A stretch of DNA of 62,659 nucleotides from Deltaproteobacteria bacterium RIFCSPLOWO2_12_FULL_60_19 (GTDB lineage Bacteria > Desulfobacterota > Binatia > UBA9968). Positions 6,206 to 51,024 of the stretch are shown here, in pieces. The stretch lies in the NCBI GenBank assembly GCA_001798595.1, contig MGSS01000102.1, positions 1 to 62,659 on the forward strand, given 5' to 3'. Below the pieces are notes generated by a model. The model saw nothing but the letters and a program-made list of their open reading frames with translations, searched no databases and had not been told where the DNA came from. Positions within the stretch are counted from its first letter, which is position 1. Each line of letters opens with the position of its first letter. The translations under genes were made by a program, and so were the position numbers.

Positions 6206-7926
6206 TGGGAGAGACTCTCCGGTTACACCTCTGGCAGCACGGAATTTTTCTCCTCATCCTGTTTCTCGTGCTGGCCCCCCTCGCCTTTCTTATCCTGGGA
6301 AGCTTCAGCACGGCGCGCCTGCCGGGGGACTTTTCCCTCGATGCGATGGGGCTCGTCAACTATATCAAGGTCTACTCCGACCCCGGGACCTTCGAGATAT
6401 TCTCCAATACCGTGATCTACGTCGCGGGCAGCACGGCCTTGGCTCTTGCTCTGGCAGTCTCGCTCGCGTGGCTCGTCGAGCGGACCAACATGCCCGGAAA
6501 AGTGCTCGTCTATGCGGGCGTTCCGATGACCCTGGCCGTGCCGGGCATGCTGCAGGCCATGGCGTGGGTTCTGCTTCTCAGCCCGCGCATCGGTTTTATC
6601 AACCAGCTATTAAAAGATATTTTCGGCCCGGAGACGCCGATCATCGACGTTTACTCCCTTGGCGGCATGGTCTTCCTCGAAGGTCTTAGACTCGTGCCCA
6701 CGGCCTTTCTGATGCTCGTGCCGCTCATGCGCAGCATGGACCCGACTCTGGAAGAGGCCGCGGCGGTTTCCGGGGCGCGGCCGCTCTCTACGCTCCGCAA
6801 GGTCACGTTGCGCCTGTTGGCTCCCGCGTTGGTGGCGGTGATGATCTACCAGGCGATGACCGCGCTGGAGGTTTTTGAGATTCCCGGCATTCTGGGACTT
6901 CCCGCCGGCATCTACGTCTTCAGCACCAAGATTTACGCGATCGTGCGCACGGCGACCTTCATGCCGGTCTACGGCCAGGCCAACGCGCTGGCTATGGTTT
7001 ATCTCTTCATCGCCGTCGCGACCACCTTTTTCTACACCCGGATGATCGGCCGCGCGGAGCGATACGCCGTCATCACGGGGAAAGGCTACCGGCCGCGCCA
7101 GCTCGATTTGGGGAAATGGAAAATCCCGGCGCTGGGATGCGCGCTGCTGTTTCTGTTTCTCTCGATCGTGCTCCCCTTTCTGGTTTTCCTTTACGCTTCT
7201 TTCCTGCCGTATCTTCAGGCGCCGTCGTGGAACGTCCTGAAGGCCTTGACGCTGAAGAACTACCGCTTGCTGGCCGAATACGGCGAGGTCGGGTCGGCGC
7301 TGAAAAATACGGTTCTGATGGTCGGAGCCACGGCCACGGCCACGGTCGTGCTGTCGTTTTTAGTTTCGCTCGTCGTCATACGCAGCAAGTTCTGGGGACG
7401 AAAGCTCCTCGACCAGATGGCCTTCATGCCGCATGCCATTCCCGGCATCGTCATGGGCATCGCGTTTTTCTGGCTCTTTCTCAAAATCGACTTTCTGCCG
7501 CTCTATGGCACCATCTGGGCGATTTCGATCGGCTTTACGATCAGCTTTCTCGCCTATGGCACGCGCTCGATGAACGCCGCCCTGCTCCAGATCCACAAAG
7601 AGCTGGAAGAGGCGGCCTACGTGAGCGGCGCGCCGCCGTGGCGCACGATGTGGCGGATTTTTGTCCCGCTGATGATGCCGACTCTGGTGGGCGTCTGGAT
7701 CTGGGTGGTGCTCCATGCCGTGCGCATCGCCGGCATGCCGCTGATGCTTTACGAAGGCCCCAAAAATCAGGTGCTGGCGATTCTTATCTGGAATATGTGG
7801 GATGAAGGCTACGTTCCCGCGGTGGCGGCGATCGGCACGCTGCTCATGATCGTGCTCTTGTTGCTCACGCTCGCCGTCCGTCTCCTGGGCTTCCGCAGGC
7901 AGACCATGCAGATCGGGGGAACATGA
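6205..7926 (+). CDS. Fused double-domain ABC permease (FbpB/thiamine type)
   Basis: About 573 residues with some 12 predicted membrane segments, that is two permease halves joined in one chain. Each half has the EAA cytoplasmic loop contacting the ATPase: EEAAAVSGARPLSTL near residue 195 and EEAAYVSGAPPWRTM near 460. The ATG at 6205 overlaps the stop of the preceding binding protein; an upstream TTG in frame (6166) is less likely. The 3' end overlaps the ATPase start by ATGA. Confidence 0.92.
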   Translation: MGETLRLHLWQHGIFLLILFLVLAPLAFLILGSFSTARLPGDFSLDAMGLVNYIKVYSDPGTFEIFSNTVIYVAGSTALALALAVSLAWLVERTNMPGKVLVYAGVPMTLAVPGMLQAMAWVLLLSPRIGFINQLLKDIFGPETPIIDVYSLGGMVFLEGLRLVPTAFLMLVPLMRSMDPTLEEAAAVSGARPLSTLRKVTLRLLAPALVAVMIYQAMTALEVFEIPGILGLPAGIYVFSTKIYAIVRTATFMPVYGQANALAMVYLFIAVATTFFYTRMIGRAERYAVITGKGYRPRQLDLGKWKIPALGCALLFLFLSIVLPFLVFLYASFLPYLQAPSWNVLKALTLKNYRLLAEYGEVGSALKNTVLMVGATATATVVLSFLVSLVVIRSKFWGRKLLDQMAFMPHAIPGIVMGIAFFWLFLKIDFLPLYGTIWAISIGFTISFLAYGTRSMNAALLQIHKELEEAAYVSGAPPWRTMWRIFVPLMMPTLVGVWIWVVLHAVRIAGMPLMLYEGPKNQVLAILIWNMWDEGYVPAVAAIGTLLMIVLLLLTLAVRLLGFRRQTMQIGGT

Positions 7927-43842: not shown

Positions 43843-43881
43843 TTCTAGATTTTGGTAAACGGAAGATATAAAGTCGTCGAT

Positions 43882-44118
43882 ATGAAGTGCCTGGTCTGCG
43901 GCTCGGAAATGGTCAAGAAGAAAATCCCGGTCGATCTACGGATCGGTGACAAGCTACTGGTCGTTGAACAAGTGCCCGCAACGGTCTGTGATCACTGTGG
44001 AGAGAAAGTTTTTGCTCCAACGATCGCTAGAAAACTCCAGGCCCTCGGCAAGCAGCGCAGCAAGGCGCAGCGAACCTTGAGAGTGCCGGTCTTCTCTATG
44101 GACAACGTCTTTCCCTAA
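43882..44118 (+). CDS. YgiT-type zinc-finger protein (MqsA N-terminal-like)
   Basis: 78 residues from ATG 43882. MKCLVCGSEM and TVCDHCGEKVF form the two CxxC knuckles, and IPVDLRIGDKLLVVEQVPA lies between, as in MqsA/YgiT antitoxins. The HTH half of MqsA is absent. No MqsR-like toxin is upstream (DUF1015 is); a DUF2283 fragment follows. Confidence 0.8.
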   Translation: MKCLVCGSEMVKKKIPVDLRIGDKLLVVEQVPATVCDHCGEKVFAPTIARKLQALGKQRSKAQRTLRVPVFSMDNVFP

Positions 44119-44169
44119 GACTTCCCTATTAGGGCCGTTTCCCATCTCGTGCAACTACTAAGAACTAAC

Positions 44170-44270
44170 ATGTGGCTGGACTACGACGAGGAGGCCGATG
44201 TTCTATACCTGCAACTTGAAGATCAACCACGCTCGACACACAGTCAAATGCGAGATGACGGTGTCCTCGA
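44170..44270 (+). pseudogene. DUF2283-like gene, truncated at the 90-bp repeat
   Basis: MWLDYDEEADVLYLQLEDQP ... RDDGVLDY is the first half of a DUF2283 protein. The reading frame then enters the 90-bp repeat and continues as unrelated sequence to 44439. The other frame of the repeat (RFSKAGQRKVALGNFEFSVAEP) looks more protein-like, so a frameshift at the junction is possible. Confidence 0.6.
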
Positions 44271-44360
44271 TTACGGTTCTCGAAAGCGGGCCAGCGGAAG
44301 GTCGCTCTGGGCAATTTTGAGTTCTCAGTGGCTGAACCTCAAGAGCAAATTCCTATCACT
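44271..44360. repeat. 90-bp direct repeat, left copy
   Basis: Identical to 48588-48677 except one A/G difference near position 44343. It runs from TTACGGTTCTCG to TCCTATCACT. Such identity implies a recent duplication or exchange. Confidence 0.9.
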
Positions 44361-44496: not shown

Positions 44497-45972
44497 ATGG
44501 CTAAAGATAGGACAACCATCGGTATGCAAGCACAAATCAGAAAGATGTCCGAGCAGGGGTATTCGATTCATACGATCGCTCGGATTCTAAGGATTTCGCG
44601 CAAGACGGTGCGGAAGTATTTGGAGATTGGGATGGGGGAAACGAGGGAGAAACCAGAATGGATTCAGGCGGTGGATTGGAATTCCGTCCTGCAGGAAGTT
44701 TTATACGGCTGGGGGACTACGATCAAACAGATCCACCGAGAGATAGCTCCAGAGGTCTCTTATCTAAACTTCTGGCGGGCGTTTCGAGCCCAGGCTCTCC
44801 GCCACGCTTCGCCCTCAGACGTCACTATTCGTCTGCATCAAACCTGCGCCCGATTGGTTCAGAGCCGGGAGCGGGACATCCTTGTGCACTGGAGACAGTC
44901 GACCGACAGAACACGTTAGGGAAAGGCGGTCGCTATCCTCGACAGTCGTTCCCGTACCATTGATCAGATCGCCAGCAAGGTCGAAAAGAGTATCGACGCT
45001 GTCAAAAACTGGATATGGGCCTTCAATCGCCAAGGCATCGAGGGACTGAACTCACAACGGAAGACGCGTGAGGACGAGCATTCCGTCAATGCCCAGAAGA
45101 GAGCGAAGTGCCTTCTTGAGATACTACACCAGAGACCTAACGCTTTCGGTATCAATAGAAGCAACTGGAATCAATCTAGCCTCGCGCTGGCCTACGAGAC
45201 GGAGCACGGTGAAGCCATCTCCAAGAGCACAGTCAGCAGGCTAATTAGGAAGTCTGGCTACCGATGGAAGAAGGCAAAGAGGGTTCTGTCGAGTCCAGAT
45301 CCACTGTACCGGGAGAAGGTTGAACTGCTACTCAATACGCTGCATAGCTTAAAATTTGGGGAGCTGTTTTTCTTTGTCGATGAAATGGGTCCCCTGCGGA
45401 TCAAGAGATACGGGGGGCGGGTCTACGTTCCGAAGAGTACCTCGCCAACAGTTCCCCAAGTTCAACCCCAAAGGGGTGCGGTGATCCTTGCGGCAGCGTT
45501 GAGCGCAACTACGAACCAGGTCACCTGGATCTACGAGGATTCCAAGGATACCTCCGGGATGATTGACCTTGCCGAGCTTCTATTCAATCAACATCACAAT
45601 GCAACCAGGATCTTCCTGACCTGGGATGCGGCCTCGTGGCACAGATCCGAACGACTTTCGGATTGGCTCGACAGTTTCAACTTCGAGACTCGCGTGAGGA
45701 ATTATGGCCCGGCGGTGGAACTTGTTCCTCTACCGACGTCATCTCAGTTCCTGAATGTGCTGGAAGCTGTCTTCAGCGGCATGAAGCGAGCAGTGATTCA
45801 CAACTCCGATTATCGGAACACCGACGAGATGAAAGGAGCAATTTCACGTCACTTCTCGGAAAGGAATGCCTACTTTAAGGAGAATCCGAAGCGAGCCGGG
45901 AAGAAAATCTGGGAAATCGATTTTTTCGCGGACATCGACAATTTGACATCGGGGAACTATCGCGAGTGGTAA
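44497..45972 (+). pseudogene. IS630-family DDE transposase interrupted by an in-frame TAG
   Basis: From ATG 44497 (AGAAGGA upstream) an IS21-like HTH domain (YSIHTIARILRISRKTVRKYL) leads into a second HTH. A TAG at 44917-44919 is followed in the same frame, with no other stop, by 351 codons containing a third HTH-like part (TIDQIASKVEKSIDAVKNW) and the DDE catalytic core: Asp in FFFVDEMGP, Asp in FLTWDAASWHRS, Glu in LNVLEAVFSGMKR. A single base change would restore about 491 residues. The stop overlaps the GTG of the PolA-like gene. Confidence 0.82.
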
Positions 45973-48275
45973 CGCAAGACCGGAACTTTCTGATCGATGC
46001 TTCGTTCATTCTCGAGAGGAATCACGAGGCATTTCTTGGAGCGCAGCTCTTGGTATGCGGCGATGAGAACTACACCTTCTTGTATGGTGTTACGCGAGAC
46101 CTTCTCCGTCTGAGACAGGATCTTGGGATCCTTCAAGGCGTCTTGGTCGTTGGACGGGACTCAGGCACTGCATGTGCAGAGGGGTGCATCGGACGTCTAG
46201 TAGATTTCCTTTCGGTGCTTGGCATGCGCATTCTGCATCGGCCTGACGTTTCCGTTCTCGACTTGTGCGCTGGCGTAGCTCCGCTCGCCTCTCATGTCAT
46301 CTCTGATCGCCAGGAGTTTCTGCAATTAGTAAAGTACGATCTCACTGTTGTTTGTCCTGACAAGTCTGGCGGCTGGGATATTCTGTCCTCGACTACTGTC
46401 AAGCAGAAATTCGGAATCGAGGCTGTACAAGTGCCTAGCTTTCTCGCACTGACCACCGGTCCGAAGTCTTCAATCGTCACGCGAGGACAGGCAAGGCGGC
46501 TCTTGGAACTCTATTCAGAGGTTACGGAGATGTTCGAGGACGGACTGACACGTGTGATGTCAGCACCATTGCGTGACAAGTTGGAGCTAAACAGGAAGGC
46601 AATTCTTGACCGGACTGTGCGGTTGACCGCGACGGAAGAGCGTGTTCGAGACCTGGATACTCCCGCGCCGCTGTATGAATTAGCTGAAGACGAAAGCGCA
46701 CGGATCCTCGAATCATGCGGGCTATTATCACTTGTCCGCTTGTTGCGTCGGCCATCTCGGTCATCGGGGGCACCGGCAGTACTGGAAGCGCAGGATCTGC
46801 GTGAACCAGAGGGTTACAAAGTGATTACCGACGCCGAAGGTTTGGACGTGTTACAGTCGACAGTGTTGTCCGCTAAAGTGTGTGCCATTGATACCGAGGC
46901 GAGCGATAAGGACCCTCGCACGGCGACGCTTTTCGGCGTAGCGTTCTGTGTTGAGGAGAGGAGAGCCTACTATCTACCTGTCGTGGGTAACCATCGGAGT
47001 TCCGCCCGTCCGCTGGATGCGCACGGAGCGCTGCGGAAAATTCTTGGAAGTGGGGTGAGATTCGTTGGCCACAACATTAAGTATGATTACGTGCTTCTTC
47101 GTCGAAACAATCTGAACATTGCTCAGATGTACTTCGACACAATGCTAGCGGCACATGATTGCTACGGTGATCTCGATTCTTGGAGCCTGGGGTATTTGGC
47201 AGAGAGAATACTGGGCCGACACGTACAACCCTATCGTGAACTCGTGAATGAAGGCGAGACTTTCTTGGACCTTCCTCAAGATGTCGTGGTCCGCCATGCG
47301 TGTACGGATGTCGATGCAACACTGGCACTCTATCATATGCTTGTGAAGGAATTGGAACGACGAGGGGTAGCTCACCAGTACTGGAACGAAACGATTCCTC
47401 TGGTCAAGACTCTTGGGGACTGGGAGTTTGCTGGAGTCTGGACCGACACCAGCAAGCTTGCAAGCATCCGACAGCTATTGCTTACTCGCCTACAGGAGCT
47501 TCGCGCAGCCGTCTTGAAGGATACTGGTACTGTCTTCGACTTGGATTCCAACAAGGAACTTTGGGCTGCTCTCGGAGGAATCTCGTCTCTGAAGCGGATG
47601 TTGCCAGCAGGAGGCAGCGGCAGAATCCTTGCGCTGGAGCGGGCCGCTTGCTCGCATCCCATTGCCAAAAGTGTCGCGAGATATAAGCGGCTTCGGAAGG
47701 AACTGCGCATCGTAGATTCCGTTGCCGCTGCGGTTCGTGAGGGGCGGGTCTACCCACTTTTTAGTCAAGTGAGGACCGGGTACAACATGCTGACGTCTGA
47801 GAATCCGAGTATCTTCGATGGGGTCGCGGACAACAGCTTGAAGTCGTGTTTCAGGGGATGTCTACCTGGTTTCTTTAGGGACCGTCGCAAGGCGATTGGA
47901 CGGTTACGGGAACTGACCGGTGAGTATGACAGTGAAAAAGCAGCGTTCGCGCAGAGCGCGGGCGAGATTCGAAGGGTGATCGCTGAAGTGGGCAGTGAGG
48001 AGTTGCTGCTCTCTTTGGCGGTAGGCGTCTCGGATACACAGCTGTCGAAGGAGTACCTGATTGACCGATTGACGGCGTCCCAGGTTCGCCACGAGTTTCA
48101 GGTGACATACCCAAGGGTGTTCGAGTGGGCGAGTCGATATCGCAATGAGTGCGTAGCGCGAGGTTTTGCTGTGGACGGCGGTCGGGTCCGGCATCTGGAT
48201 GGCCTGCGAAGTTCTAACGTTGCAAGAAGAGAGGCTGCCTGTAACACGGCAATCAGATGGCTACTTCGATACTGA
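45966..48275 (+). CDS. Degenerate DNA polymerase I-like protein; only the 3'-5' exonuclease site looks intact
   Basis: 769 residues in full PolA order. N-terminal 5'-nuclease-like domain (about 5-230): HVISDRQEFLQLVKYDL matches the TGDKDLLQL block but acidic residues are missing, and the GDSSDN helix-hairpin motif is TTGPKSS. The 3'-5' exonuclease domain (about 285-465) keeps Asp309 and Glu311 (AIDTEAS), Asn370/Asp374 (GHNIKYD) and Asp448 (HACTDVD, with His for the usual Tyr). Polymerase domain (about 470-769): NMLTSENPSIF and the O-helix-distal ARGFAVDGGRVRHL are recognisable, but the motif A DYSQxE and motif C HDE are absent and the protein stops after NTAIRWLLRY. Start GTG overlaps the transposase stop. 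Confidence 0.85.
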   Translation: MVTQDRNFLIDASFILERNHEAFLGAQLLVCGDENYTFLYGVTRDLLRLRQDLGILQGVLVVGRDSGTACAEGCIGRLVDFLSVLGMRILHRPDVSVLDLCAGVAPLASHVISDRQEFLQLVKYDLTVVCPDKSGGWDILSSTTVKQKFGIEAVQVPSFLALTTGPKSSIVTRGQARRLLELYSEVTEMFEDGLTRVMSAPLRDKLELNRKAILDRTVRLTATEERVRDLDTPAPLYELAEDESARILESCGLLSLVRLLRRPSRSSGAPAVLEAQDLREPEGYKVITDAEGLDVLQSTVLSAKVCAIDTEASDKDPRTATLFGVAFCVEERRAYYLPVVGNHRSSARPLDAHGALRKILGSGVRFVGHNIKYDYVLLRRNNLNIAQMYFDTMLAAHDCYGDLDSWSLGYLAERILGRHVQPYRELVNEGETFLDLPQDVVVRHACTDVDATLALYHMLVKELERRGVAHQYWNETIPLVKTLGDWEFAGVWTDTSKLASIRQLLLTRLQELRAAVLKDTGTVFDLDSNKELWAALGGISSLKRMLPAGGSGRILALERAACSHPIAKSVARYKRLRKELRIVDSVAAAVREGRVYPLFSQVRTGYNMLTSENPSIFDGVADNSLKSCFRGCLPGFFRDRRKAIGRLRELTGEYDSEKAAFAQSAGEIRRVIAEVGSEELLLSLAVGVSDTQLSKEYLIDRLTASQVRHEFQVTYPRVFEWASRYRNECVARGFAVDGGRVRHLDGLRSSNVARREAACNTAIRWLLRY

Positions 48276-48587
48276 GCAGGCAGGTAGCTGAGTCCCGTTC
48301 CGCGGAAAACCTAACAGCTAGCTCTGTTGGAAGATTTCCAGGCCCCACCCGGAAGAGATCCAGCGATAAAAGAGCTTACCTTCGATCCATCTTACGGTTC
48401 GATAAACTCACCGTCCCGAGGAAGATCGAGGGACAGCCAGGTTATTTAAGAGCCTCCTCACCGCAACCGAGGGCAAATGTCCATCCGCTGTCCTAAGACC
48501 GGCGCTGAAGTTGACATAAAACCACCTTATCGGATATTTTTCACTCCAAGTTGGATACAGGGGCCAGTTGATCCTTTCTGTGGGCTC
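48276..48587 (+). other. Non-coding right part of the IS630-PolA element
   Basis: 312 bp without a convincing gene. An open frame begins MSIRCPKTGAEVDIKPPY at 48477 and runs through the 90-bp repeat to 48686; it may be a fragment of a small conserved protein, but its coding nature is doubtful. A weak dyad AACAG-CTAGCT-CTGTT lies near 48311. Confidence 0.5.
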
Positions 48588-48677
48588 TTACGGTTCTCGA
48601 AAGCGGGCCAGCGGAAGGTCGCTCTGGGCAATTTTGAGTTCTCAGTGGCTGAACCTCAAAAGCAAATTCCTATCACT
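48588..48677. repeat. 90-bp direct repeat, right copy
   Basis: Right-hand copy of 44271-44360. In one frame this copy ends cleanly with a stop (QIPITNY-stop at 48684-48686), whereas the left copy runs on, suggesting the right side holds the original gene end. Confidence 0.9.
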
Positions 48678-48697
48678 AACTACTGAGAGGCTGTTAC

Positions 48698-48787
48698 CTA
48701 CCGCCCCACCGGCGGCACGAATTCGCCGTCGCCGGGCTTGCCGATCAACTTGCCGTTCTCCATCACCACTTTTCCACGAACGATGTT
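48698..48787 (-). pseudogene. Remnant of an amidohydrolase 3' end
   Basis: On the minus strand this encodes NIVRGKVVMENGKLIGKPGD then GEFVPPVGR-stop, matching the last 29 residues of the intact amidohydrolase (stop at 49642) with a few changes and clear nucleotide divergence. Nothing of the gene precedes it: the PIN gene ends 8 bp away. The PIN/AbrB pair therefore sits between the full gene and a spare gene end. Confidence 0.82.
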
Positions 48788-48794
48788 TTTAGCT

Positions 48795-49256
48795 TTAACG
48801 ATACCGGCTCGGAGGGATCGCGTTGAGTTCGCTGACGTTGAGGAGGTGGGGATCGGTAGTGATTAAAAAATCTGCTCGCTCAGCCAAGCCGGTGGCCAAG
48901 TAGAGGCCATCATTGTAGGCGAAAGCGTTTTTCTTGGAATAATATTTTCTCCGTAGCTCCGCGGCATGGACGGCCAGTGGCGCGGTAATCGCGAGGACGC
49001 GCAGGTTCGGTTCCGCTTCAATCGCGGCTCGCGCGATCTCAAAACCCGGCTGGTCTTCTCTCAGATAGGCGTAACGGATCTCGCCGAACAGGATCGCTGT
49101 CGAGACGCCCCGCAAGCGTCCTTCCTCCACCGCCTTAAGAACGCGCGCGGAGGCGACGATCTCGTCCTTCGGCGCTTTTGTCGCGTGTGGGATAAGGACG
49201 GCCAGGAAGATGTTGGCATCTAGACAAGCAAGAGGCGGAGCATCATCTCGCGCCAT
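48795..49256 (-). CDS. PIN-domain toxin (VapC-like)
   Basis: 153 residues. Catalytic acids in LACLDANIFLAVLIP, FGEIRYAYL and NAFAYNDGLYLATGLAERADFLITTDPHLL. It begins inside the AbrB-type antitoxin gene (14-nt overlap), a standard toxin-antitoxin layout. Expected to be an RNase held inactive by its partner. Confidence 0.88.
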   Translation of the reverse strand: MARDDAPPLACLDANIFLAVLIPHATKAPKDEIVASARVLKAVEEGRLRGVSTAILFGEIRYAYLREDQPGFEIARAAIEAEPNLRVLAITAPLAVHAAELRRKYYSKKNAFAYNDGLYLATGLAERADFLITTDPHLLNVSELNAIPPSRYR

Positions 49257-49491
49257 CTTCCCAGCCCTCTTCGAATTCCTTGTGGACCTGGCGATGATCT
49301 GACGGAGTCAAGCGCTTTCCCGCAAGGCGGAGGGCGTCCGTCAACCGGGGCGGCACCGCTTGGACGCGGAAGGAACCGTCGGTTTGTTGAACAAACACGA
49401 GGAGGTCCCCCACCTTGGCCCGCAGCGCCCTGCGAACCTCGCGCGGCAGAGTAACCTGATACCTCGCGGTGATCTTTGTCATAGAGGACAT
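49243..49491 (-). CDS. AbrB/SpoVT-type antitoxin
   Basis: About 80-83 residues; starts at ATG 49491 or 49482 are equally possible, and an extension to 49524 is unlikely. MTKITARYQVTLPREVRRALRAKVGDLLVFVQQTDGSFRVQAV is a swapped-hairpin AbrB DNA-binding domain; the acidic C-terminal tail (FEEGWEDGAR) would bind the toxin. Likely autoregulates the pair. Confidence 0.88.
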   Translation of the reverse strand: MSSMTKITARYQVTLPREVRRALRAKVGDLLVFVQQTDGSFRVQAVPPRLTDALRLAGKRLTPSDHRQVHKEFEEGWEDGAR

Positions 49492-49641
49492 AGGCTGTCT
49501 TTCGCTCTCAGTACTTTCAGACAAAGCAATTTTTATCAGAAATACTTAGTACCGTCAAACGCCCTAAACAGATTCGGAACTAGCCGAGGTTCGTCTGCTA
49601 TCCAGGAACTCGACGGAAACGGAGATGCGCCCACTACCACC

Positions 49642-51024
49642 CTACCTCCGCACCGGCGGCACGAATTCACCGTCGCCCGGCTTGCCGATTACCTTGCCGT
49701 TCTCCATCACCATTTTTCCACGCACGATCGTGTAAACCGGCGCGCCTTTGACCTTGCGTCCGTGATACGGCGTCCAGCCGACCCGCGTGTAGGTCGTCTC
49801 GTTGGTGATCGTCTCTTCCTTCTCCATGTCGATGATAGTCAGATCGGCGTCCGAGCCGACCTGGATCACTCCCTTGCGCGGATAGACGCCGAAGATGCGG
49901 GCGGGATTGTAGGAGGTGATGCGGACCAGCCGGTCGAGCGTCAATTTCCCCTCGTTCACGGCGGTGAGAAAGAGTCTCAGATAGTCCTGAATCTGCGGCT
50001 CCCCTCCCGGAGATTTCCACATATCTTTCCATCCGACGTCTTTTTCTTCCTTGGTGTGCGGCGCATGGTCGGTGCCGATCAGATCGACGGTCCCGTCGTT
50101 AATACCCTTCCACAGCGCCTCGACGTGGGCCGGCGGCACCCAAAATCCCAGACAATAAGGCCCCAACTTCTCCACATTTTCCCAGGTCGCAAGGAAAAGC
50201 GCCCAGGGATTCACCTCGCCGGTCACGGGCCTTCCTTCTTCTTTGGCGCGCCGGATCATCTCGATCCCTCCCGGCGTGCTCATGTGCAGGATATGAAGTT
50301 TCGTGCCGGTCGATTTTTGAAAACGGATCAGCGTCGCGATCGCCGTGTCCCAGATGATGCCGTCGAAGTCGCGGTAGGCTTTGGCGTAGGCCTGCGGGCT
50401 TTTGTCGCCGCGCTTCCAGTATCGCTGTTCGATCTCGTCCATTAAATCTTGATCGTGCGGGTGGACCATCAAAGGCAGGCCGGTTTTGGCTACCTCCTCG
50501 AACGCGCGAAAGAGCTGCCCGTGATTATGGAGCCCGATCCCCGGCATGTGCGGGTAGTCCCGTCCGGTGTCTTTGACCATGAAAATCTTGAAGGCGAGGC
50601 AGCCGGCCTTGGCGAGTCCCGGAATCTGTTCCGGCACGGTGCCGGATGGATTGTGGTTAAAATCCACGACCGCTTTCTTTTTGTGGTCTTCGATCAGGGT
50701 ATGGTAGCGCTCGACCGTCGTGGTCGGTGGATCGACGTTCGGCATGCCGATCGACAACGTCACCCCGCCGGCTGCGGCCGCCTGCGTCGCGGTAGTGAGG
50801 TCTTCCTTATGGGTGAATCCGGGGTCCCGGTGGTGGGTATGGGTGTCGATGAGTCCGGGGATTATTTGCTTCCCCTTTGCGTCGATCGTCTTATCGGCTT
50901 GAGCAAATGAGCCGGGCTTGCCCAACCCGGTGACTTTGCCACCCTGGACCGCAATATCGGCGGTTATAGATCCGCCCGGCGTCCAGACCTCTCCGTTTTT
51001 GACCAATAAGTCCACTTTGTCCAT
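49642..51024 (-). CDS. Dihydroorotase/hydantoinase-type amidohydrolase
   Basis: 460 residues. Metal site: HxH in IDTHTHHRDPG, carboxylated Lys in CLAFKIFMV, His in LMVHPHD and in LHILHMSTPGG, Asp in LIGTDHAPHTKEEK. GMPNVDPPTTTVERY is typical of cyclic-amidase enzymes (dihydropyrimidinase, allantoinase, hydantoinase). It hydrolyses cyclic amide or ureide rings. Divergent from the ABC system that follows, with which it may cooperate. Confidence 0.9.
   Translation of the reverse strand: MDKVDLLVKNGEVWTPGGSITADIAVQGGKVTGLGKPGSFAQADKTIDAKGKQIIPGLIDTHTHHRDPGFTHKEDLTTATQAAAAGGVTLSIGMPNVDPPTTTVERYHTLIEDHKKKAVVDFNHNPSGTVPEQIPGLAKAGCLAFKIFMVKDTGRDYPHMPGIGLHNHGQLFRAFEEVAKTGLPLMVHPHDQDLMDEIEQRYWKRGDKSPQAYAKAYRDFDGIIWDTAIATLIRFQKSTGTKLHILHMSTPGGIEMIRRAKEEGRPVTGEVNPWALFLATWENVEKLGPYCLGFWVPPAHVEALWKGINDGTVDLIGTDHAPHTKEEKDVGWKDMWKSPGGEPQIQDYLRLFLTAVNEGKLTLDRLVRITSYNPARIFGVYPRKGVIQVGSDADLTIIDMEKEETITNETTYTRVGWTPYHGRKVKGAPVYTIVRGKMVMENGKVIGKPGDGEFVPPVRR

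Follow-up and report, generated by a model that had tools for sequence, protein, structure and literature searches.

In contig MGSS01000102.1 of Deltaproteobacteria bacterium RIFCSPLOWO2_12_FULL_60_19 (assembly GCA_001798595.1), analysed over positions 1 to 62,659 and called the window here, a gene for an IS630-type transposase overlaps the gene for a protein related to DNA polymerase I (Pol I). This PolA-like protein keeps the acidic residues of the 3'-5' exonuclease and has lost the catalytic residues of the polymerase. The same gene pair with the same residue pattern was found in other bacteria. As a tentative interpretation, we propose a 3'-5' exonuclease that is a partner of the transposase and trims the DNA ends or gaps made by it. 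For the window the coordinates, the reading frame and the overlap of the GTG start with the transposase stop, given in an initial annotation of this DNA, were reproduced by re-reading the sequence; the frame is open through all 769 codons. The Pfam domain DNA_pol_A_exo1 was detected with 61.9 bits (cut-off 23.6) and DNA_pol_A partially with 48.2 bits (cut-off 34.3). With the NCBIfam models of full PolA only 169.1 of 720 and 110.1 of 600 bits were reached, far under the cut-offs.

The catalytic residues were compared with those of 111 cellular PolA (77, 29 and 5 from three genome scans) and 79 viral PolA, all picked by similarity to the window protein. D309, E311, D374 and D448 align with the exonuclease columns of the cellular enzymes, and these four acids (DEDD) are retained in all four known members of the PolA-like group, i.e. 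the window protein and the relatives L002, L003 and L004 described below. The aspartate of motif A, arginine and lysine of the fingers motif RxxxK and the aspartate of motif C are missing in the three full-length members; the same residues are present in 108-110 of the 111 cellular PolA. Thus, the intact exonuclease set and the loss of motifs A and C, both read from the window alone in the initial annotation, recur in the relatives, the loss in the full-length ones. The acids of the 5'-nuclease had also been described as gone. Of the acids checked, D11 alone is conserved throughout the three full-length members.

A feature overlooked by the initial annotation is the residue at the tyrosine position of motif Exo III, which is histidine in 4/4 members (H444 in the window). 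At this position tyrosine was found in all 108 cellular PolA with a residue and histidine in none, three of the 111 having a gap, while the 79 viral sequences contain 77 tyrosines, one histidine and one leucine. The tyrosine corresponds to Tyr497 of the Klenow fragment (PMC9629493), and tyrosine or histidine at this place is described to split the DnaQ-type exonucleases into DEDDy and DEDDh enzymes (PMC3753628). In the PolA-like proteins the histidine is spaced as H-x3-D, i.e. like the tyrosine. DEDDh enzymes have the spacing H-x4-D in Exo III. Because of the tyrosine-type spacing the members do not qualify as plain DEDDh enzymes; judged from the alignment, their Exo III is a tyrosine-type site bearing a histidine.

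A structure of the PolA-like protein was predicted with AlphaFold2 from an alignment of 42 sequences; since 38 of these were ordinary PolA, the Pol I fold is partly presupposed. The model reached a mean predicted local distance difference test score (pLDDT) of 83.6 and a predicted template modelling score of 0.63; in the exonuclease domain the blocks of ten residues ranged from 80 to 97 in pLDDT, with one block at 62. The best matches among solved structures were large fragments of Pol I (ranks 1-39 and 43, Z 23.1-25.7, 436-478 residues, root-mean-square deviation (rmsd) 4.1-5.1). Residues 278-768 of the model superpose on Klenow residues 324-849 with Z 25.1 and rmsd 4.7-4.8 over 473-477 aligned residues; residue 849, where the structure alignment stops, presumably precedes motif C. 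Complete Pol I structures, 5'-nuclease part included, headed the rows of a Foldseek search with template modelling scores (TM-scores) of just 0.40-0.45, and therefore only residues 278-768 of the model are well tested. For this part, the model predicts the fold of the Pol I large fragment. The alignment to PolA and the structure model had both been proposed in the initial annotation as checks.

Relatives were searched in 84,980 genomes by six exact 8-mers, a scan from which members with none of the six would escape; the 8-mer GHNIKYDY is shared by 4/4 members. The scan kept 80 of 114 relatives, 34 further ones were not kept. Three of the 80 loci belong to the PolA-like group and 77 to ordinary PolA types (71 placed by the tree, six by scores). 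All three relatives, 32-40% identical, are from metagenome-assembled genomes (MAGs), one of Nitrospira and two of 'Deltaproteobacteria'. L002 (Nitrospira) and L004 (window's own family) are full length with 33 and 39% identity to the window protein. Both have the same type of transposase upstream, which finishes with the identical residues SGNYREW, and the 7-nt overlap. Consequently, the coupling with the 7-nt overlap was observed in 3/3 loci with visible upstream DNA; the contig of L003 starts inside the PolA-like gene, where coupling is not visible. Further pairs of an IS630-like transposase and a PolA-like protein, for which the initial annotation had suggested a search, thus exist. Neither homologues apart from transposases nor a loss of the exonuclease acids in relatives, either of which it had named as speaking against its view, appeared among these loci. 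Concerning frameshifts and stops, the full-length copies are open and one of the four members, L003, is split by an internal deletion.

The group is rare. No member beyond the four was detected in overlapping samples of 395, 148, 295, 345, 85 and 20 genomes, where a match in G512 proved by contig position to be L004 itself. The occurrence is very patchy, with matches in one or two genomes of each sample. Among the 80 of 145 viral contigs kept, and among the best 15 rows from 25 phage and 69 plasmid records, no member was found; a scan of the viral contigs for the transposase gave no match.

In the PolA tree the PolA-like proteins form one clade (4 of 86 rows) with a support of 100 in the Shimodaira-Hasegawa-like approximate likelihood ratio test (SH-aLRT). 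The stem of this clade measures 2.78 changes per column; long branches are flagged by the program, and L003 covers no more than 37% of the alignment columns. The coupled transposases are likewise one clade (3 of 10 rows, support 100/100). Since both proteins group in this way, the alignments indicate a conserved gene pair and not a decaying polA. Of the three parts, the exonuclease domain shows the highest conservation in 6/6 pairwise comparisons. Its identity at the codon positions is 0.53/0.70/0.27 between the window and L004. From these two observations the PolA-like gene is judged to be under selection on the protein sequence.

The L004 protein groups with L003 (SH-aLRT 90, under the program's mark of 95), to which it is 59% identical over 189 exonuclease columns, compared to 45% over 190 columns for the window protein. 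The host of L003 belongs to another class, and neither class sample contains matches from the other. As L004 pairs with a protein of another class and not with that of its own family, the tree points to horizontal transfer of the PolA-like gene, with the caution due to MAGs. For L004 the binning appears correct, because the surrounding DNA aligns with that of a sister genome at 88-91%.

Table 1 Features of the gene pair in the window
Feature	Coordinates	Strand	Basis or remarks
IS630-type transposase gene	44497..45972	+	Interrupted by TAG; helix-turn-helix part upstream, DDE domain downstream
In-frame TAG stop in the transposase	44917..44919	+	Sense codon at this column in L002 and L199
PolA-like gene, 769 aa	45966..48275	+	Open frame, Pfam domains, alignment, tree, AlphaFold2 model
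Transposase stop overlapping the PolA-like start by 7 nt	45966..45972	+	Of the same length in L002 and L004
Residues 1-280, degenerate 5'-nuclease region	45966..46805	+	Alignment, motif check
Residues 281-470, 3'-5' exonuclease domain	46806..47375	+	D309, E311, D374, H444, D448
Residues 471-769, thumb and partial fingers/palm	47376..48272	+	Without motif A, fingers RxxxK and motif C

The transposase was identified by the NCBIfam model transpos_IS630, which matches positions 44920-45969 with 155.5 bits (cut-off 100), and by the DDE triad (D, D, E) present in 10/10 aligned transposases. The frame of the helix-turn-helix (HTH) part starts at 44497 or 44467, and a purine-rich stretch precedes the ATG at 44497. 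Between the TAG and the first catalytic aspartate there is no ATG, GTG or TTG, only rarer start codons. Unless readthrough of the stop occurs, the window transposase is therefore probably inactive, and with the interrupted gene this copy has probably lost the ability to move on its own. Uninterrupted copies exist, as the sense codons of L002 and L199 demonstrate. The N-terminal parts of the coupled transposases vary: an HTH with a weak IS21-type match (35.6 bits, cut-off 160) in the window, a pRiA4b ORF3 domain in L002 and a short HTH in L004. Partnerless transposases of the same IS630-type branch (L194-L197, L199-L201; 375-747 aa) share the triad, the variable N-terminal parts and a DDE core 42-51% identical to that of the coupled ones. 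They differ by another C-terminal end and by the absence of a PolA-like gene from 7/7 loci in a translated search (nothing under E 0.1). For transposases of this branch one match per genome was obtained in G192, G252 and G222; in the window's own genome (G000), counted in one genome sample, there was also one transposase match.

According to our proposal, the transposase and the Pol I derivative would form an old, horizontally spread two-gene unit and would be translated together. The derivative would no longer polymerise and would have kept 3'-5' exonuclease activity on a Klenow-like DNA-binding frame. When the transposase cuts DNA in the manner of IS630/Tc1/mariner enzymes, the donor site would be expected to carry short 3' overhangs and the target to have single-stranded gaps. 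The partner, made beside the transposase and possibly in complex with it, could bind these ends or gaps as its substrate and remove 3'-terminal nucleotides. The benefit might be a cleaned-up donor site or ends set for host repair enzymes. For Sleeping Beauty and mariner, three-nucleotide 3' overhangs were reported both on the element after excision and on the flanks of the donor; insertion of Tc1/mariner elements produces target gaps, and it is host repair that has to deal with the breaks and gaps (PMC7827188). By analogy, an exonuclease on a Klenow-like frame, encoded by a gene overlapping that of the transposase, would fit a substrate of the Tc1/mariner type, the overhangs described being those of these elements and not of bacterial IS630.

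Several observations weigh against this proposal. None of the three loci showed convincing terminal inverted repeats, nor did they convincingly share ends, and each of the four genomes contains a single match to the PolA-like gene. In the window the transposase has an in-frame stop whereas the PolA-like frame is still open. The 7/7 branch mates without PolA-like partner indicate that this type of transposase can do without it. With the spacing H-x3-D instead of H-x4-D, the catalytic value of the Exo III histidine is putative. The L003 copy is without about 118 internal codons and goes on in a second frame whose start overlaps the preceding stop. Finally, there are only four members, and with the possible exception of the window they come from MAGs, in which mis-binning can occur.

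The search for terminal inverted repeats gave nothing over the shuffle maximum in the window, L002 and L004; the best inverted match in the window had a score of 14, which was reached by 56/2000 shuffles. A direct match in the right flanks of the window (~48328-48371) and L002 (~6654-6695) was reached by 19/2000 shuffles. With 12 comparisons made, both matches are borderline and neither convinces, though the direct one might be the remnant of a shared end. G511, from the genus of the L004 host, follows the L004 DNA collinearly as far as L004 position 2645, beyond which the two differ. This region is variable, and no clean empty site was found in G511. The initial annotation had called the PolA-like protein transposon-encoded. 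This holds for the coupling to an IS630-type transposase, conserved in 3/3 loci; the lack of convincing inverted repeats or shared ends, the one match per genome and the interrupted transposase leave the term unsupported in its strict sense.

A direct repeat of 90 nt (44271-44360 and 48588-48677, 99% identical) was considered as target duplication and rejected, as it is a dispersed genomic repeat with 11 matches on six contigs of G000, the query's own place counted. Copies with ~45-90 matched nt, 80-99% alike, occur in 13/25 genomes of one bacterial family, among them further contigs of G000 (C10, C150, C44, C149, C7) and relatives such as G514, G499, G512 and G198; a few of the matches fall in other parts of the query. 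Most copies have a sharp 3' end, TTCCTATCA(C/T)T, and the 5' boundary is variable. By analogy, the 5'-truncated copies recall a retro-type spread.

The single matches and missing ends can also be read as a domesticated pair, which we consider unlikely. In this case the transposase would have turned into an endonuclease that is immobile, present in one copy and changeable in its DNA-reading N-terminus; the DNA cut by it, e.g. invading DNA, would be degraded by the exonuclease in a defence-like manner. The one match per genome and the absence of convincing transposon ends agree with this, as do the different N-terminal parts of the transposases in the window, L002 and L004 and the toxin-antitoxin (TA)-type genes close to all three pairs. 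The patchy occurrence is equally expected of a rare mobile element, however, and TA genes are common in such genomes. Furthermore, six proteins compared with PADLOC gave no match above 20.3 bits. This value was obtained with RTasPolA, the profile of defence RT-associated PolA, for L004 only, over the thumb region; the window protein had no match at E 0.01.

It is rather unlikely that the PolA-like protein is an architectural, DNA-binding subunit that holds nicked or gapped DNA and uses the exonuclease residues for binding of metal or DNA. The Klenow-like frame with the thumb and part of the fingers is conserved (29-37% identity) though catalytically empty, and the exchange of tyrosine for histidine could mean changed catalysis. 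The four invariant acids and the exonuclease domain as the best conserved part, on the other hand, point to catalysis.

With still more doubt we regard the PolA-like gene as independent cargo, which is carried along behind the transposase and serves another function, e.g. in host repair or against the Pol I of the host. The 7/7 other transposases of the branch without partner and the window frame that is open behind an interrupted transposase would be in line with such a role, but the exact 7-nt overlap is kept at a protein identity of 33-39%, and the matching clades of both genes suggest a lasting joint function.

A decaying polA copy beside a transposase by chance, for which the lost polymerase and most 5'-nuclease residues, the split L003 copy and the lack of another DNA_pol_A gene in the window's genome assembly might be quoted, is hardly credible and already refuted by the derived pattern shared among the members: the same losses and the tyrosine-to-histidine exchange are found in relatives at 32-40% identity in a long-stemmed clade, the frames are open and under apparent protein-level selection, and full polA genes occur also in the hosts of L002 and L003 and in 5/7 relatives of the window's host.

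The polA content of the hosts was examined separately. An assembly search of G000 found no DNA_pol_A gene besides the PolA-like one. Ordinary full polA is present in the hosts of L002 (G527) and L003 (G528); in that of L004 (G529) only a weak further PolA match was obtained. Among seven searched relatives of the window's host polA was found in five, and two were without match. Full-length polA was not found in G000, G198 and G506, three genomes of one family with 97-100% completeness, and sister genomes have polA. With 2/7 relatives lacking and 5/7 having polA, the absence in G000 may equally be a gap of the assembly. A replacement of a lost host polA by the PolA-like gene is implausible, as the polymerase residues are gone.

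In the neighbourhood, TA-type genes adjoin all three pairs. In the window (43852-44360 and 48795-49524) they comprise an MqsA match under the cut-off, DUF2283 and a PIN/MazE pair, in L002 (1393-2204) HepT/nucleotidyltransferase and in L004 (8176-8860) TumE. A piece of 60 nt from the 3' end of an amidohydrolase gene is duplicated in the window (48697-48756 and 49641-49700, 90% identical, ~0.9 kb apart) and flanks the PIN/MazE pair. Because this gene end is repeated across the pair, an insertion of PIN/MazE with the duplicated amidohydrolase end is suggested.

If our proposal is true, tasks in transposition would be divided in a new way, and Pol I would have taken a new evolutionary route. Going by the titles of their records, the bacteria with the pair belong to at least two phyla. 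The pair offers a testable case for two questions: can a transposase supply the processing of DNA ends itself, and can a tyrosine-type exonuclease site work with histidine? A literature search, with most subscription papers outside it, gave no exonuclease-only Pol I beside a transposase among the matches listed. The initial statement that no named system of this type is known stands with one restriction, as IS630 transposases were already reported beside TV-Pol (PMC2579912).

With bacterial Pol I the PolA-like protein shares the order of three regions, the exonuclease acids and the overall predicted fold; it differs by the missing catalytic residues of the polymerase, the incomplete 5'-nuclease set and histidine in place of tyrosine. 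ExnV1 (PDB 7r0t) from a virus metagenome is also a Pol I 3'-5' exonuclease without polymerase and is thought by its authors to come from a truncated gene (PMC9629493). Our model has the same fold (Z 23.2, 210 residues, 2.0 A, rank 41). In contrast, ExnV1 consists of the exonuclease domain only and keeps the equivalent of Tyr497, and no transposase is reported in the available part of its description (PMC9629493). CCPol of SCCmec is likewise a Pol I relative encoded in an operon of a mobile element; it is described as an active polymerase without exonuclease domain, with MP and a helicase as partners (PMC7581432). The nearest precedent is TV-Pol, a family A-related protein in mobile elements with transposases of the IS630 or IS605 type reported nearby. 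TV-Pol keeps two palm acids, which are gone in the PolA-like protein, and is said never to be linked to nuclease domains (PMC2579912), whereas the PolA-like protein has an exonuclease domain. The polymerases of mobile elements, TV-Pol and CCPol, are understood as tools of replication; here the proofreading half is kept and synthesis is dropped. Judged by its residues, the pair described here is thus the mirror image of TV-Pol.

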